A stretch of 64,000 nt of DNA from an uncultured Poribacteria bacterium (GTDB taxonomy: Bacteria; Poribacteria; WGA-4E; PCPOR2b), in contig OY282444.1 in assembly GCA_958296125.1 (NCBI GenBank), forward strand, positions 3,877,623-3,941,622, written 5' to 3'. The notes beneath the pieces are model-generated. The model did no database searches. It was not told where the DNA came from and saw nothing but the letters and a program-made list of their open reading frames with translations. Positions 45,842 to 55,383 of the stretch are shown here, piece after piece (position 1 is the stretch's first letter; each line of letters starts with the position of its first letter). Both the position numbers and the translations under genes were made by a program.

Positions 45842-47155
45842 CTACCATTCGATCCGGTCAATATGCTTGGCGAGGGTATCTCGGAAGGTTGAAGGCTTCA
45901 TTTTGAGGAGTTTGGCAGCTTGCGTTTTATTCCCCTTTGTCTTTTTCATCGCCCAACCGATGAGCTCACGCTCTGTCGCCCAGATAATTTCCTGAAAGGA
46001 GATTTCACTCAACGTCTCATCTAAGCTGATATGTGTCGGTAGTTTCAACTCAAGCGGAATCTCGTCGGTTGTAATATCTGCCCCGTCGCCAACTGTTACG
46101 AGCCGTTCAATGACGTTTTCTAATTCGCGGACATTACCGGGCCATGGATATGCCGTGAGCACCTCGACAGCTTCGGGAGCGATGCGGATGGGAGAATTGG
46201 GCGAGAATAGATCTAAAAAATGATTGATTAAAAGGGGAATATCTTCGACCCGTTCACGCAACGGCGGTAGAAAGATTGGGACAACGTTCAGCCGATAGAA
46301 GAGGTCGTCTCGAAATTCTCCATTTTGGACCTTCATACGCAAATTCTGGGTTGTCGCAGCAATGATCCGCACATCCTCCTTTTGCGCGTTTCCGTCTAGA
46401 TTTTGCTGCTGCCCTTCTAGTACCCATAGGAGTTCGGCCTGCAGTGCGGTGGGAAGTGCATCAATATCTTTGAGGAAAAGTGTCCCGTGATGCGCGAACT
46501 CGTTTTCCGTGCGCTTGTCTCCGAAGAGCGCTCGATCTAATGTTTCGGTAGGCGCTCCTGAGCAGTTGACAATCCTAAAGGGGTGATGTCTACGCGAGTT
46601 GTTAAAATGAATCGATTTTGCAACGAGTGCTTTTCCTGTGCCATGCTCCCCGTAGATGAGCACAGTGCTCTGAGTGTCGGAGATGTTTTCAAGCAGGTCA
46701 AAGAGGTCTTGTATCGCCTGACTCTTCCCAATAATATGGTGGTATGGGGAGCGTCCTTTCATGGGAACTTTTAGCTGTGAACGCCCTTTACCCTTGCCGT
46801 GGAGCATTTTCAGTTTATCCAGCATCTGAATCAGTTCTTCACTGGAGAAAGGTTTCTTGATATAGTTATACGCCCCAAATTTCATTGCTTCCACAGCGGT
46901 TTCAACGCTCGCATAAGCGGTCATGACAATCACAATGATATGGGGCTGCTCCTTCTGGACCCGCTTGAGAAATTCAATTCCGTGCATCTTCGGCAGGCGC
47001 AGGTCGGTGACAAGGACATCGAAATGTTCGTTCTGCACAAGCTGTAGCCCAATCGCTGGGGCCTCAACCGCAATGGTATCGTAGTTCGCCTCGCGCAGAT
47101 CATCGCGTAGTGTGATAAGTTTGATTTTTTCGTCGTCAACAACCAGTACTTTCAT
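45842..47155 (-). CDS. NtrC-type response regulator lacking GAFTGA and with an altered Walker B
   Basis: The 437-aa protein has a receiver domain (acidic pair DD7-8, phospho-acceptor Asp51 in VTDLRLP, Lys in YIKKPF), an AAA+ domain and a Fis-type HTH (NKTQAAKLLKMKPSTFRDTL). Walker A GEHGTGKALVAKSIH is intact, and Arg-finger region FRDDLFYRLNVVPI and WPGNVRELENVIERL are present. The segment where ELFGHEKGAFTGA should be reads ALFGDKRTENEFAHHGTLFL, so the sigma-54 contact loop is missing. Walker B reads TLFLKDID instead of TLFLDEI. It may regulate without sigma-54 or ATP hydrolysis. The start overlaps the kinase stop (ATGA). Confidence 0.9.
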   Translation of the reverse strand: MKVLVVDDEKIKLITLRDDLREANYDTIAVEAPAIGLQLVQNEHFDVLVTDLRLPKMHGIEFLKRVQKEQPHIIVIVMTAYASVETAVEAMKFGAYNYIKKPFSSEELIQMLDKLKMLHGKGKGRSQLKVPMKGRSPYHHIIGKSQAIQDLFDLLENISDTQSTVLIYGEHGTGKALVAKSIHFNNSRRHHPFRIVNCSGAPTETLDRALFGDKRTENEFAHHGTLFLKDIDALPTALQAELLWVLEGQQQNLDGNAQKEDVRIIAATTQNLRMKVQNGEFRDDLFYRLNVVPIFLPPLRERVEDIPLLINHFLDLFSPNSPIRIAPEAVEVLTAYPWPGNVRELENVIERLVTVGDGADITTDEIPLELKLPTHISLDETLSEISFQEIIWATERELIGWAMKKTKGNKTQAAKLLKMKPSTFRDTLAKHIDRIEW

Positions 47156-48894
47156 GCCTTTTCCAGCCCTCTCCTTATTGGTAGTTTGACGGTGAACGCG
47201 GACCCCTGTGCGACCTCGCTGTCGAATTCAATGATGCCTTCATGTTGTCTGATGATCCGGTTAGACACGGAGAGCCCAAGTCCTGTGCCTTTCTCGGTAA
47301 TCTTTGTGGTGTAAAACGGGTCGAAAATCCGATCTTGGACGGACTTAGGGATGCCGATTCCTGTGTCGGTTACCTGAACGAAAGCCACTGCTTTACCAAG
47401 TAGCGCATCAAATTCGATCTTCCCAGTTTTGAAAGTCAATACGCCGCCATCGGGCATAGCCGCGATCGCGTTTAGGGCAAGATTCAGGACAACCTGCTCT
47501 AATAGATGTTTGTCTCCACGGATTGGATCCAGGGCTTTCTGAAAATGCTTCTCAATTCGGATCCCTTTTTCGTCAGCACTGTATGCAATCAGATCAGCAA
47601 CTTCGGTGACAACCTCATTGAGGGCGACTGATATGAGTGCCAACTCGCGTTGGCGTGAGAAATTGAGAAGCTGCCCAACAGTCGTTTCAATCCGCCGGAG
47701 GGCTTCCTCCATGAGGCCCAAGTATTCTGTGGTTTGCCGCTCGTTCTGCGGATCTCGCTTTATCCGAAGGATGCAGTTGAGTAGACCGTCAAGGGGATTA
47801 TTGATCTCATGTGCAACCCCTGCCGCCAATTCACCGATCGCCGCCATCTTCTCCGATTGGACCATTTGCTGCTCCATCCGTTTCCGATCGGTCACGTCGC
47901 GGCAAACCAGGACCGTGCCTAAGTAGTTGTCATCCCTGTCCCGCACAGCAGCATAAGTATTTTCAAGGAATTTATCCTTAATCTGTAGTGTCTGCTGTTC
48001 GACTGCCGCATGTCCCTTCGATAAATCCTCCGCGATTTGCAGGAGAACGCCGTCAGCCTCTGGGGCTTGAATGGTTTCTGTATCAAGTCCGAATTGCTCT
48101 TTTTGGATCTGCTGGCCCGCCTTGTTAAAGAGCGACACGTGATTCCTGTTGTCAACAAAGATGACTCCCTCCTGCATACACTCAATAATCGATGTGAGCT
48201 TGTTTCGCTCGAAAAGCACGGCTCCTCTCGCCTCTTCCAACTCTGCCACTTTTTCCTCAAGGTTGTCTTTCAGCTCGCGGGTTTCCGCTTCACGCGCCCT
48301 CGCGGTATCCATAATCGATGTTGCCAGATAGACCGAGAAAAACAGGGTGCTTGTGAACACGAACAGCACACTTGAAATGTAAATCGGGTTTCGCCAGAGC
48401 GTTGCGGGCAGAAAATTTTGTAGATGAGAATGGGGCAGGATGTGGTAATACTCAAGGAAAATGAGAGCACTTAAAAGGATTGTGTTGAGTGTGGCAAGGA
48501 TGTAACTGACTTTTTTGGAAAGGAGTATGCTCGCAATAACGAGATGAAAGATAAAGTAGAAAATAAACGGGTTCTCGACACCACCGCTAAAGTGGAGGAG
48601 GACCGTCAAAGAGAACAAATCTAGGATAATATGCCCGCCCGCGTGTCGCTGAATTGATATGAGCGGTTTTTCCGTAAGGTGTTTGGGATAGATTTGCGGC
48701 TCAAAGTTGTAGAGCGTCATGAGTGCCGCGATGATGTATAGCGGCGTTGGATTGTCAATGATATGGAGTCCCCAACTTGCAACGCTGACAGTCAGCAAGA
48801 CTCCCGTGATGGCGATCCACCGAAGCTTGACGAGCCAGCGGATCCGCTTGATGAGTTCGATTTTGAGAGGTAAATCTGTTGAATTTGCATCCAT
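47152..48894 (-). CDS. Membrane sensor histidine kinase with PAS domain
   Basis: The 580-aa protein has about six N-terminal membrane helices (residues 20-200), a linker coiled coil, a PAS domain (SIIECMQEGVIFVDNRNHVS), a HisKA domain with phospho-His in AAGVAHEINNPLDGLL, and a HATPase_c domain with N, G1 and G2 boxes (LNLALNAIAAMPDGG, VTDTGIGIPKSV, TEKGTGLGLSVS). It would phosphorylate the response regulator encoded immediately downstream with an ATGA overlap. The signal sensed is unknown. No strong ribosome site precedes ATG 48894. Confidence 0.93.
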   Translation of the reverse strand: MDANSTDLPLKIELIKRIRWLVKLRWIAITGVLLTVSVASWGLHIIDNPTPLYIIAALMTLYNFEPQIYPKHLTEKPLISIQRHAGGHIILDLFSLTVLLHFSGGVENPFIFYFIFHLVIASILLSKKVSYILATLNTILLSALIFLEYYHILPHSHLQNFLPATLWRNPIYISSVLFVFTSTLFFSVYLATSIMDTARAREAETRELKDNLEEKVAELEEARGAVLFERNKLTSIIECMQEGVIFVDNRNHVSLFNKAGQQIQKEQFGLDTETIQAPEADGVLLQIAEDLSKGHAAVEQQTLQIKDKFLENTYAAVRDRDDNYLGTVLVCRDVTDRKRMEQQMVQSEKMAAIGELAAGVAHEINNPLDGLLNCILRIKRDPQNERQTTEYLGLMEEALRRIETTVGQLLNFSRQRELALISVALNEVVTEVADLIAYSADEKGIRIEKHFQKALDPIRGDKHLLEQVVLNLALNAIAAMPDGGVLTFKTGKIEFDALLGKAVAFVQVTDTGIGIPKSVQDRIFDPFYTTKITEKGTGLGLSVSNRIIRQHEGIIEFDSEVAQGSAFTVKLPIRRGLEKA

Positions 48895-50674: not shown

Positions 50675-52174
50675 TTACCTAAGAGCAGCATCTAATCTGC
50701 GAAGGTCCGTATTTTTCAATGCGGTATCCCTCTTGTATTGATAGTAGTTGCCGAGGACTTTGCCAACATACCGTTCTGCCGGACGACTGAGCGGCACGTT
50801 TTTCCGCACGTTCCCTAGTCCCACATTATAAGCGGCGAGTGAAAGGTGGTAGTTCCCGTCATACCTTTTAAGCAGTTCGTGCAGATATTTGACTCCCGCG
50901 TCTAGGTTGGTAAGCGGGTGGAAGCGTTCATCGACATTGGGCTTTGGTGTCGGCTTTTTTACGTTCCGATAGGATGGAACCTTGAGACCGAGCCCCCGTG
51001 CTGTCGGTGGCATCAGTTGCGTCAGCCCAGCGGCCCCACTGGCGGAAATCGCTTTGGGATTGAAGGTTGACTCCGTTTTGACCAGAGCGATGATGAGTTC
51101 AACCTCGACATCGTACCGCTTCGCAATCCACTCAGTTGGGGATTTTGCATTTTTCGCAGCTTTTGTGTCAGTTGAAGTTTCCTTTCTCTCCGCGGAAGTT
51201 CCCTCTTGACCTATGGAAGCCGAGGCTGTCTGGCGGGACGAATCAAATGTCAAGCCAACGGCAAGAAGATGTTTATATGCCACGTCTGGCTGGTTCAAAT
51301 AGGCGTAATGGAGATGTTTTCCGTGGACATTGACAGAAAATCCCAAGCTCCAGTCGGGCTCTGGCTGCAGTCCTATGAGGTCAATTGTTGTACCTAGCCG
51401 GAGCGCGAGTCCATACTTGGTAACTTCGGCACCCATTCTGAGCTGCCACAACACTGTATCCAACACACTGTTCAACTGAAGTGGTTGAACCGGTTTCCAT
51501 GCTACCCCAAGGGCAAATGTCTGATCAAACTGCTTCAGGAGCCTGCCATCTCGGTCTGGAATGGTCACTCCAGATATATCTATCAACTTTGCTCCCAAGG
51601 TTAGGTGCAGAGGCAGTTTTACAATAGCACCGAGGTCGTAACTTGGCTTCCATTGGCTGCCGGGGTTGGGGGCACGATTGTATCCAAGATTCCCACCAAG
51701 CTGCAATCGGCTGCCGATGGATCTGGCATAAGACAGGAGAATTTGATTATAACCTCTCTCGAATGTGCCGACTGGATTGTTCGGATGGTCATGAAAGAAT
51801 CGGTCTTCACCGTTCAGATCTAAGGCACTGAAGCCGAGCGTTCCCACGTAATGAATCGGATACCCAAAGGAAATTGCGCCTTGGGATAGGTCGTAAACCA
51901 AACTGCCGTGCTCAAGGCTTGCCAGTCCCGCCGGATTCCAGAGGGCTCCCGCTGAATCATCGGCGCTGCTAATGAATGCCCCGCTCATACCAAGTGCCTT
52001 TGCACCAACCAGAGGGCGCAGGGAAGCCGAGGCTATGGAGATGCACAACAACCACAACGCTGCACTCTCGACGCAGAGCTGAAGCCAACGGCTACGGTGT
52101 CCGCATGTAGTCGGCAAGAAGCGCGACTTTTTCTTCTTATTAAATTTCAAACTGTAGGTAGGGACAGGTTGCAT
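50675..52174 (-). CDS. Outer-membrane beta-barrel fused to SLT lytic transglycosylase
   Basis: The start is ATG 52174, the second of two ATGs and 6 bases from GGGGAGGA; 499 aa. A signal segment (about 30-50) precedes a PorV/UPF0164-like barrel: KALGMSGAFISSADDSAGALWNPAGLA is the family opening, followed by alternating beta strands to about residue 310. A Ser/Thr/Lys linker leads to a C-terminal SLT/Slt70-type lytic transglycosylase (about 345-490) with the catalytic Glu in LIIALVKTESTFNPKAIS, then SGAAGLTQLMPPTARGLG and AAYNVGLGNV. The combination would anchor a peptidoglycan-cleaving enzyme to the outer membrane. I do not know of a described example. Confidence 0.85.
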   Translation of the reverse strand: MQPVPTYSLKFNKKKKSRFLPTTCGHRSRWLQLCVESAALWLLCISIASASLRPLVGAKALGMSGAFISSADDSAGALWNPAGLASLEHGSLVYDLSQGAISFGYPIHYVGTLGFSALDLNGEDRFFHDHPNNPVGTFERGYNQILLSYARSIGSRLQLGGNLGYNRAPNPGSQWKPSYDLGAIVKLPLHLTLGAKLIDISGVTIPDRDGRLLKQFDQTFALGVAWKPVQPLQLNSVLDTVLWQLRMGAEVTKYGLALRLGTTIDLIGLQPEPDWSLGFSVNVHGKHLHYAYLNQPDVAYKHLLAVGLTFDSSRQTASASIGQEGTSAERKETSTDTKAAKNAKSPTEWIAKRYDVEVELIIALVKTESTFNPKAISASGAAGLTQLMPPTARGLGLKVPSYRNVKKPTPKPNVDERFHPLTNLDAGVKYLHELLKRYDGNYHLSLAAYNVGLGNVRKNVPLSRPAERYVGKVLGNYYQYKRDTALKNTDLRRLDAALR

Positions 52175-52274
52175 TGCCATTCCTCCCCGATGAACTGATT
52201 AGGCACCCAACTGTTCAATATCAGTCCTGAATCGGTGTAAAAATTTAGCTGCGATAAGGCAGGAACACTAGTTA

Positions 52275-52760
52275 TCAATTTGTGACGGTGAGCAGTATGG
52301 TTTTGGTTGATGTCAGAACTTCAGTATCCGTATCAACTCCTGACGATTCTGCTGAAACTACTTGGCTAATCGCTGTAACAACGAGCTGGAGAACTTCAAC
52401 TTTGGCTCCGTCATCCAGCTTTTCCGGGGCAGACCAGACTGCCTTATTTTGGCCCGTGGTGGTCAGTGTGCCGTAACCGGTTGTGTTAACCCAATTAAAG
52501 ATGATGTTTGTTCCTCGAAGTTTGTCAACGGTTGCCATTATGTTCACTGTCTCACCAGTTTGAACAGCTGCTTTGCTTACGTCAACACTGACGTTAAGAG
52601 ATGGGTTCTCCGGGTCTACCTGTGTGGGTGTGTCGTCGGTTTCCTCCGATTCTCGGAGCGGGTTCTCAACGTTACTCCCCCCACAACCTAGCAAGCATAG
52701 GGCAATAGTGAGTAAAACTATGGGCGAAAGAACTGGTGTTACGCGTAAGATTTTAATCAT
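52275..52760 (-). CDS. Small lipoprotein, Ig-like fold suspected
   Basis: The 161-aa protein begins at ATG 52760 behind AAAGGAC. The signal peptide ends in the lipobox LLGC, with Cys26 as the lipidation site. An acidic, Pro-rich spacer (SEETDDTPTQVDPENP) is followed by a single beta domain with VDVSKAAVQTGETVNI and FNWVNTTGYGTLTTTGQ, reminiscent of Ig/PKD-type modules. The function is unknown. It lies between the barrel-SLT gene and the NTF2-like envelope genes on the same strand. Confidence 0.75.
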   Translation of the reverse strand: MIKILRVTPVLSPIVLLTIALCLLGCGGSNVENPLRESEETDDTPTQVDPENPSLNVSVDVSKAAVQTGETVNIMATVDKLRGTNIIFNWVNTTGYGTLTTTGQNKAVWSAPEKLDDGAKVEVLQLVVTAISQVVSAESSGVDTDTEVLTSTKTILLTVTN

Positions 52761-52893: not shown

Positions 52894-54021
52894 TTAGAGT
52901 TTCGGATATTTGGGGACGTTTTTATAATGCTTCCAATTCTCGGAGTAAATCTTCCAGAGACCGTCGGCGGGATCGACCATAAAAACCAACTGCTTCATCC
53001 CGAAATCTGAATAAGCGGGTTGGCTCCCGGAAGCGTGGCGGCCGACAAATTCTTGGAAGAAATTGACATCCGCCACTGCGCTGTCGCCGTTGACCTGCAA
53101 ATGAAAGATGTTTACCTCAATTTTGCTATATCTTTTGTTAAGGGCTTTCATTTTTTCTCGTAACTGTGCTTTGCTCAACTGGGTCGGGTATTCTCGCCCC
53201 TTGTTAACAGTGACCCTCGTAATCGCTGCGTCCTCTGCATACTTTGACATATAGGTTTTGAGATTCTTTCCTTGCCAAGCCTGCTGCCATTCCCCCAAAA
53301 CTTGGCTCAATTTAAGTTGAGTATCAAGCGGAGCCTCTCTGACAATCGGTGAGGTGCTATCTGGTGTAACGTTAGCGGTGCTATCCGGTGTAACGTTATT
53401 GGAAGCAACCGTGTCATTGAGGGGCTGCGACGGGGGGCTTGCGGGTGTCAGATTGGTGGATTGAACAGGGGGCGGGGGTTCTTGAACAATATGTTCCTCG
53501 GTGGTTTCAGGGTATTCCAGTTCATCTCGAATTCTATCGTTTATCAGTTTCCAGCGTTGCAAGAGCCCTTTCTTTTCAATCGTTAAATCCCGATGGAGCA
53601 TAACTAAAACCTCGCCATCTTGGTAGAGGGTGACAGGGATGCGTTCAATCTGCCGACGATTGTTGTCTCTGAAATCTTTTCGGGGGAGGAGTCCAGCTAT
53701 ATTCGCTTCAACCTTTTCTCTGCTGAAAAGTTTCAATGCCCGTTCATACTGACTCCGGTTTTTGATTCGTGCCGTCGAATCCCATAGCTGCTGATACAGT
53801 GTGGGCTGTTTTGATTCGACAGCTTGCTTCCACTGTTGGAGGAAGGGCTCAATCGCCCCTGCCTTTTCAAAAATCCGTAGCCCAACTACCATCGCTAGGA
53901 GGAGGATAGCTGCTCCGATAATACCAATCATGGCAAAACGGGCATTCGGATTCTGAAATGCGGTGAGAAATTCAGCCTTGCCGGACCGCATCACTTGTTT
54001 AACGGAACTATATGCTCGCAT
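52894..54021 (-). CDS. Membrane-anchored protein with two NTF2-like domains
   Basis: The 375-aa protein has one membrane helix (about 30-50). A first NTF2/SnoaL-like segment follows (IEPFLQQWKQAVESKQPTLY to about 160). A Pro/Thr/Ser-rich linker contains a tandem NVTPDSTA repeat. The second NTF2-like domain (VLGEWQQAWQGKNLKTYMSK to WKIYSENW) resembles the Cds6 C-terminal domain found attached to L,D-transpeptidases. The topology suggests a periplasmic scaffold. It lies 12 bp downstream of the coiled-coil lipoprotein gene, whose C-terminal domain is paralogous. Confidence 0.75.
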   Translation of the reverse strand: MRAYSSVKQVMRSGKAEFLTAFQNPNARFAMIGIIGAAILLLAMVVGLRIFEKAGAIEPFLQQWKQAVESKQPTLYQQLWDSTARIKNRSQYERALKLFSREKVEANIAGLLPRKDFRDNNRRQIERIPVTLYQDGEVLVMLHRDLTIEKKGLLQRWKLINDRIRDELEYPETTEEHIVQEPPPPVQSTNLTPASPPSQPLNDTVASNNVTPDSTANVTPDSTSPIVREAPLDTQLKLSQVLGEWQQAWQGKNLKTYMSKYAEDAAITRVTVNKGREYPTQLSKAQLREKMKALNKRYSKIEVNIFHLQVNGDSAVADVNFFQEFVGRHASGSQPAYSDFGMKQLVFMVDPADGLWKIYSENWKHYKNVPKYPKL

Positions 54022-54033
54022 CGGTCTGCCCTC

Positions 54034-55383
54034 TTAATTAAAAGTTTTATCATACATGGGAACAGCTTCGTAAATCCGCCAGATTTCACGAAAAATCTTC
54101 CACTGAGCCCCAACTTGACGTGCCCAAACTTCCCGCGTCCACAAATCGTGCAAAGCGGGGCTCTCCGCACTCATCGCATCTTGTGAACGGCGGCTGAACC
54201 GATAGGTGCCAATAACACTCTCCCCGTCTGCATCAAACTTGGAATCCGTTTCTTTCCACTGGGCATTTGCCATCTTTTTCAAAGCATTAACCCTTTGCAT
54301 ACGGTTAAGATGGGTTTGTTCTTCGTTGCTAGAGCGAATAACGGTCTGGTCTAGTGCCGCATCCTGAGTATACCCCCTCAAGTGTTGATGTATATCTTTT
54401 GCTGCCCACGCGAGCCCCCAATCACTGATGACTGCTCTACCGTTGGCAATCTGTTCGTGGGTCAGCGAGGTGCTGCCGGTCCGAACCGTTTGTCGCCTGC
54501 CCTGCCGGTAGACATAAGTCTTTGCTTCCTGTCTTTTCCGGGCTAGCGTATCCTCCCGTTGTTTAAGCACATTGGATTGATCTAGTTGTTCAATGTATCT
54601 TGAATAGCTTTGCGCCTGCGCCGCTGCCTTCGTTCGCACGTCTGCCGCCTCCTTGCGAGCCTCCTCTACCAACGATTGGGTTTGTGCTAGTTCACGACGC
54701 AATTGATGAATCTGGTGCTCATGTTTTTCGGACAGACTTTGTGCTTGGAGGAGTTGTGTTTGGGTCGTATCCAACTTTGACTGAAGGGCCGTGCGCTCGG
54801 TTTTGGCTTTATTATAATCGCGTAATATCTTTTGATGGGCTTGTTCAGTCTCTTGGAGTTTCCGATCTATGTCAGCTTGCAGCTGACGTTTCTGCATATC
54901 CAATTGCTGGATATCAGTCCGAGATTTTTCGAGTGCCCCCTCTGCTGTTTTCAGGTGTGCTTGAAGCGCGATGATGTCCGCTTCCTTTCGTTTAATGATG
55001 GCATTTAGCCCGTTCCCTTGTGATTTATACATTGCCTCTTGTTCGGCAATTTGTGCCTGAGTCAGGGCATCATAAGCTAGGTGCATCGCTCCGAGGCCGT
55101 CCTTCGCACTCACGGCTTCCTTCGCATTTGCGAGGGTGTTTTCCGCCCGCTGCAACGTCTCTGCCGCAAGGGCTTGAGCGTTTGCAAGACGTGCCTGTTC
55201 AATGGCAGTTTCAGACTGTGTAATAACGGCATTAACGTTTTCCAGTTGGATCTTCCCAAGGGTGCCGCTGCAGGCAGTGAGAAGCATCAGCAAAAGGCAC
55301 ATCCATGTATAATAAAGGCAATTTTTTTTCCAAGTCCTAGGGGTTCCGTGTTTTCCTATGCTTCTGTCTCTGAGCGATTTCAT
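54034..55383 (-). CDS. Coiled-coil lipoprotein with C-terminal NTF2-like domain
   Basis: The 449-aa protein starts at ATG 55383 behind TAGGAG. An unusually long N-terminal region precedes the signal helix and lipobox LLTAC (Cys38). Residues about 50-110 match the DUF4398 pattern (AQALAAETLQRAENTLANAK). A long coiled coil follows to about 285. The C-terminal NTF2-like domain begins ISDWGLAWAAKDIHQHLRGY and ends WKIFREIWRIYEAVP. It is probably an outer-membrane or periplasmic lipoprotein spanning toward peptidoglycan. It forms an operon with the gene at 52894. Confidence 0.78.
   Translation of the reverse strand: MKSLRDRSIGKHGTPRTWKKNCLYYTWMCLLLMLLTACSGTLGKIQLENVNAVITQSETAIEQARLANAQALAAETLQRAENTLANAKEAVSAKDGLGAMHLAYDALTQAQIAEQEAMYKSQGNGLNAIIKRKEADIIALQAHLKTAEGALEKSRTDIQQLDMQKRQLQADIDRKLQETEQAHQKILRDYNKAKTERTALQSKLDTTQTQLLQAQSLSEKHEHQIHQLRRELAQTQSLVEEARKEAADVRTKAAAQAQSYSRYIEQLDQSNVLKQREDTLARKRQEAKTYVYRQGRRQTVRTGSTSLTHEQIANGRAVISDWGLAWAAKDIHQHLRGYTQDAALDQTVIRSSNEEQTHLNRMQRVNALKKMANAQWKETDSKFDADGESVIGTYRFSRRSQDAMSAESPALHDLWTREVWARQVGAQWKIFREIWRIYEAVPMYDKTFN

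Follow-up and report, generated by a model that had tools for sequence, protein, structure and literature searches.

A predicted lytic transglycosylase is fused to a putative PorV-type outer-membrane barrel in nearly all Poribacteria genomes

Introduction

Lytic transglycosylases of the outer membrane are known as lipoproteins. Among the family 1 enzymes, this applies to MltC, MltD, and MltF, which carry an SLT catalytic domain and are expected to act in the periplasm. It also applies to the membrane-bound lytic transglycosylases of Pseudomonas, inactive forms of which still restore envelope stability; a tethering role is, thus, known for anchored enzymes (PMC4694138). PorV, in turn, is described as a 14-stranded barrel of the FadL family (PMC9143113). 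Its relatives are collected in the PorV/PorQ models (NF033709; PF19572) and in UPF0164 (PF03687). OmpA-type proteins combine a barrel, a linker, and a periplasmic domain interacting with the wall, and, by the established topology of outer-membrane barrels, any domain that follows the final strand is periplasmic.

Here, we describe a gene from a 64,000-nucleotide stretch of DNA (the window) of an uncultured Poribacteria bacterium. Its product resembles MltC, MltD, and MltF in the SLT domain, in the predicted outer-membrane anchoring, and in the expected periplasmic site of action, but the anchor is a predicted PorV-type barrel, and no lipobox cysteine was seen. With PorV/PorQ proteins it shares an N-terminal motif and profile homology over the full length of the barrel, whereas it is shorter, scores below the family cut-offs, and carries a C-terminal enzyme. 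The arrangement of barrel, linker, and wall-interacting domain is that of OmpA; however, the two barrels are unrelated, and the C-terminal domain is predicted to be catalytic, whereas that of OmpA is purely binding. Similar in build are a 679-aa protein of the same genome (L013, 430–2469, minus strand), in which a PorV-like barrel is followed by a SPOR domain, and a protein from another phylum (L102), in which it is followed by a TPR domain. Both belong to the same barrel superfamily but neither is an enzyme.

Results

The fused gene (50675–52180, minus strand) is one uninterrupted frame encoding 501 aa from the first ATG. A second ATG at 52174 (residue 3), chosen as the start in the original prediction, is preceded by GGGGAGGA at a distance of ∼7 nt and may, therefore, be the true start; either is possible. 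The N-terminal region (52025–52180) probably encodes a signal peptide, as read from a hydrophobic stretch at approximately residues 33–51 and a likely cleavage site near residue 52. No lipobox cysteine is present at that site (...SIASA-SLRP...), which sets the protein apart from outer-membrane lipoproteins. The remainder comprises the barrel (residues 53–312; 51245–52024), assigned by homology and beta periodicity, a variable linker of low complexity (residues 313–345; 51146–51244), which is 33 residues long here and 18–106 among orthologues, and the SLT domain (residues 346–501; 50678–51145). When the window was compared with five relatives of the genus (Nei-Gojobori), dN/dS was 0.08–0.11 for the barrel, 0.23–0.36 for the SLT domain, and 0.45–0.9 for the linker. 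Purifying selection, thus, constrains barrel and SLT domain alike, whereas the linker connecting them is free to vary.

The N-terminal half matched the NCBIfam model PorV_fam (NF033709) over residues 55–167 with E = 4.6e-10 and, in a second search, with E = 7.7e-11 at 42.1 bits, below the curated cut-off of 90; the equivalog for PorV of the type IX secretion system (T9SS_OM_PorV, NF033710) did not match the window protein. All 27 aligned orthologous barrels matched PorV_fam (best E = 9.5e-19). Because a direct hmmsearch of the PDB with the barrel profile ranked PorV first, but only at E = 0.09, an intermediate profile was built from nine PorV-like proteins with a single domain, of which eight are encoded in the genome of the window and one in genome G083. 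The barrel profile aligned to it as far as the last strand, across 256 columns (hhalign; 99.9% probability, E = 1.8e-32), and the profile of these nine proteins matched the solved PorV structure 6h3i with E = 3e-26. The conserved last strand (KHLLAVGLTF, residues 303–312; 51245–51274; consensus of the orthologues KHLLSVGxTF) resembles an outer-membrane beta-signal and is retained by most orthologues. Its final residue is F or L in 27 of 28 sequences (R in the remaining one), and the linker follows directly. The mean beta-type hydrophobic moment of the barrel was raised (z = 3.3 over shuffles, with 3 of 2,000 shuffles as high); the alpha-type moment was not. AlphaFold2, run on the window protein and four close relatives, yielded a mean pLDDT of 38 for the full length and of 27 for the barrel alone; models from such a shallow alignment being unusable, the assignment rests on homology, which supports a PorV/PorQ-type outer-membrane barrel, albeit a short one (∼260 aa).

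Residues 353–462 matched Pfam SLT (PF01464) with E = 1.6e-28 and 99.1 bits, well above the curated cut-off of 21.3. In a phmmer alignment, Glu370 (codon 51071–51073; E30 of the domain) was placed opposite Glu478 of E. coli Slt70 (1sly), and the ES, GLxQ, and AxYN motifs were all present. Across 28 aligned sequences from eight families, the catalytic Glu-Ser pair was invariant, and AxYN was conserved except for its Asn, which was changed in three. The fused protein is, by its score and motifs, predicted to be a family 1 (GH23-type) lytic transglycosylase. Searched for this family only, the genome contained two PF01464 proteins, the fusion and a TPR protein of the Slt70 type. A flagellar function, to which a match to the NCBIfam model BB0259 might have pointed, was rejected because this match spanned only the SLT domain and lay far below the cut-off. 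A second strong SLT match in genome G016 was set aside because it belongs to a TPR protein without a barrel. A TPR-type lytic transglycosylase encoded in that genome (L095, 1306–3408, plus strand) has a DERF insertion in its SLT domain, as do the fused proteins, which suggests exchange of SLT domains.

Of the 85 sampled genomes of the phylum Candidatus Poribacteria, 80 encode barrel and SLT domain in a single open frame; these are distributed over 18 genera (tally read by hand from the search results, with G073 backed by a separate look). With the family profile, SLT matches were obtained in all 85. The fusion also occurs, with 74–78% identity over the whole protein, in four named Candidatus Poribacteria MAGs, and single-contig genomes (G019, G026, G041, G048, and G050) are among its carriers. 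Among the five exceptions, G069 and G082 appear to be cut by contig ends, G081 contains a frame break, and G084 has only a distant SLT protein. In G083, from another class, a seemingly separate SLT gene was considered as an un-fused orthologue; since the contig end cuts the gene and a linker-like stretch precedes the SLT domain, it is no proof of one. Frames with both domains were absent from the matches listed for 195 genomes of three other phyla (one of the searches having a threshold of 1e-8), and a scan of viral contigs retrieved no relatives. The fusion is, thus, genuine, and nearly the entire group has retained it. The original prediction of a PorV/UPF0164-like barrel, joined through a short linker to an SLT domain with catalytic Glu and signature motifs, was borne out, and of the two findings it had named as contradicting it, an assembly error did not materialize, and homology points to a barrel.

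A predicted lipoprotein of 161 aa (lipobox LLGC; 52275–52760, minus strand) is encoded 94 nt upstream of the fusion. Searches of Pfam and NCBIfam gave no meaningful match for this protein, which belongs to no known family, and its gene lies upstream of the fusion in the examined loci of families f1–f4, f7, and f8. Within the genus, the order of genes is kept: PaaK-like, cupin, DUF4398, NTF2-like, lipoprotein, fusion, Gfo/Idh, histidine kinase, and response regulator. The DUF4398 coiled-coil protein and its neighbor, with a weak Cds6_C/NTF2-like match (52894–55383, minus strand), form a pair upstream of the lipoprotein gene that was seen only in the genus of the window; their C-termini are alike by eye. 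The histidine kinase is PilS-like and the response regulator is of the NtrC type, dependent on sigma-54 (45842–48894, minus strand). In genome G016, a transglutaminase-like gene (L061, 7396–8595, plus strand) directly follows the fused gene.

In more distant relatives, only lipoprotein and fusion stay together, and in most of these a gene for a LysM-LysM-M23 endopeptidase lies between them. It was found directly upstream of the fusion in f3, f4, f7, f8, and parts of f1 and f6, its 3′ end usually overlapping the start of the fusion, and the protein contains HxxxD...HxH motifs and looks active. In one f6 locus (L058), the M23 gene is present and the lipoprotein gene absent, and in the stretches read of the deep family f5, the fusion has neither neighbor. 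The M23 gene has been lost in the genus of the window, in G008, and in f2, and this partner is, therefore, not indispensable. In the window, a relic of its 3′ end (52095–52211, minus strand) overlaps the start of the fusion in another frame and contains in-frame stops: it reads GRNGNATCPYLQFEI, followed by two stops, compared with GNSGSSTGPHLHFEIRW of the intact gene. In a tblastn search of a small target set with the M23 protein of locus L066, the window gave E = 1.1e-5 and L043 gave E = 1.6e-7. A relic overlapping the start of the fusion was also located in L020 (1343–1606, minus strand), and the relic of G008 is longer, VGQRIKHQQIIDLSGRSGHPTRSYLHFEIRWKGKSVNASRYI, straight after the lipoprotein stop (profile match 5.2e-13); in f2, the gene is missing and no relic was seen. 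The closest other M23 matches of the genome are 36–41% identical and located elsewhere. Given this overlap, the first ∼28 annotated residues of the fusion are encoded by what used to be M23 sequence, now read in a different frame. Presumably, the tail of the M23 gene survived because the start signals of the fusion lie in it.

Discussion

We consider it probable that the fusion is a barrel-anchored, periplasmic lytic transglycosylase, which cleaves the wall underneath the outer membrane and also holds on to it. The BAM pathway would insert the PorV/PorQ-type barrel via its conserved terminal beta-signal, and the chain would leave the barrel on the periplasmic side, from where a flexible linker of 18–106 residues would give the SLT domain access to the peptidoglycan, whose glycan strands it would cleave, leaving 1,6-anhydro ends. 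Facing the periplasm, this domain should cut the wall of its own cell, on the inner side of the outer membrane. The PorV-like barrels with a C-terminal TPR (L102) or SPOR (L013) domain fit this topology. The barrel would take the place of the lipid anchor of MltC/MltD-type enzymes, and the protein may trim the wall near the outer membrane and, at the same time, physically tie the membrane to the wall. In most relatives, a partner LysM-M23 endopeptidase would cut peptide cross-links, with the lipoprotein encoded upstream acting alongside. Of the three roles offered in the original prediction, envelope growth (or tethering) is best supported, because LysM-M23 endopeptidase and lipoprotein genes neighbor the fusion in most relatives. 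Predation is unsupported and unlikely, since an enzyme attached behind the final strand is expected on the periplasmic side. A role in secretion is possible, although the evidence for it is indirect.

In that second-best reading, the barrel would be a PorV-like part of a type IX secretion system, and the SLT domain would open the wall so that translocon or cargo can pass or assemble. Poribacteria may have such a system: the genome of the window contains 48 matches to the sorting-tail model TIGR04183 (G000:C1), a SprA/Sov-like frame of 2170 aa (L106, 3392–9904, plus strand; E = 6.3e-42, below the cut-off), and a clear PorV_fam protein (L003; 2.5e-62), and the PorV-like genes L002 and L010 lie close to sorting-tail matches, at distances of up to about 1 kb. 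A search for GldM found no match, but the controls gave none either. The fused gene, however, adjoins genes for wall enzymes rather than sorting-tail genes, and its barrel differs widely from PorV proper, scoring 42 bits compared with 211 for L003, and we regard this reading as rather unlikely. Slightly less likely still is its narrower version, in which a barrel-embedded lytic transglycosylase, coupled to a PorV-type secretion barrel and acting together with the putative type IX secretion system of the phylum, opens a local passage through the wall.

It is less probable again that the protein is mainly structural, with the SLT domain tethering peptidoglycan, as the enzyme-less C-terminal domain of OmpA does, and catalysis being secondary. 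The SPOR wall-binding domain on another PorV-like barrel of the same genome (L013) would be in line with this, as would the rescue of envelope phenotypes in Pseudomonas by inactive outer-membrane lytic transglycosylases (PMC4694138). A mere tether, however, would not need the catalytic Glu, which is invariant in 28 of 28 aligned proteins and, thus, argues that cutting matters. Membership of PorV in the FadL barrel family (PMC9143113), together with weak matches of 9 of 27 barrels to Pfam Toluene_X/FadL (best E = 0.006), might suggest that the barrel is a transporter of the FadL kind and that the SLT domain assists it in taking up or recycling wall fragments or host-derived material; those matches are far below the cut-off and the neighborhood contains no substrate or transport partner, which makes a transporter very improbable. 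That the assembly is wrong here, or that two genes were joined by chance, is favored by nothing except the unlikeness of the two domains sharing a frame, and can practically be dismissed because the same fusion occurs in separate assemblies of many genera, single-contig genomes included.

Neither the domain pair nor a barrel-anchored lytic transglycosylase was found described in the literature searched, although coverage was partial and such silence is weak evidence. The architecture had originally been called unfamiliar, which agrees with this result for the pair but does not hold for the general plan, since barrels with C-terminal periplasmic modules are known from OmpA. Known are the enzyme, the barrel family, and the idea of anchoring an enzyme to the outer membrane; new is the anchor. 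A whole class of bacteria appears to use a barrel where a lipid is otherwise found on outer-membrane lytic transglycosylases, and a single chain would enter the outer membrane, extend to the wall, and cut it. The fusion, thus, offers a testable case of how wall turnover can be kept next to the outer membrane when a lipid anchor is absent, and an entry into the envelope biology of the Poribacteria, an uncultured, sponge-associated phylum.
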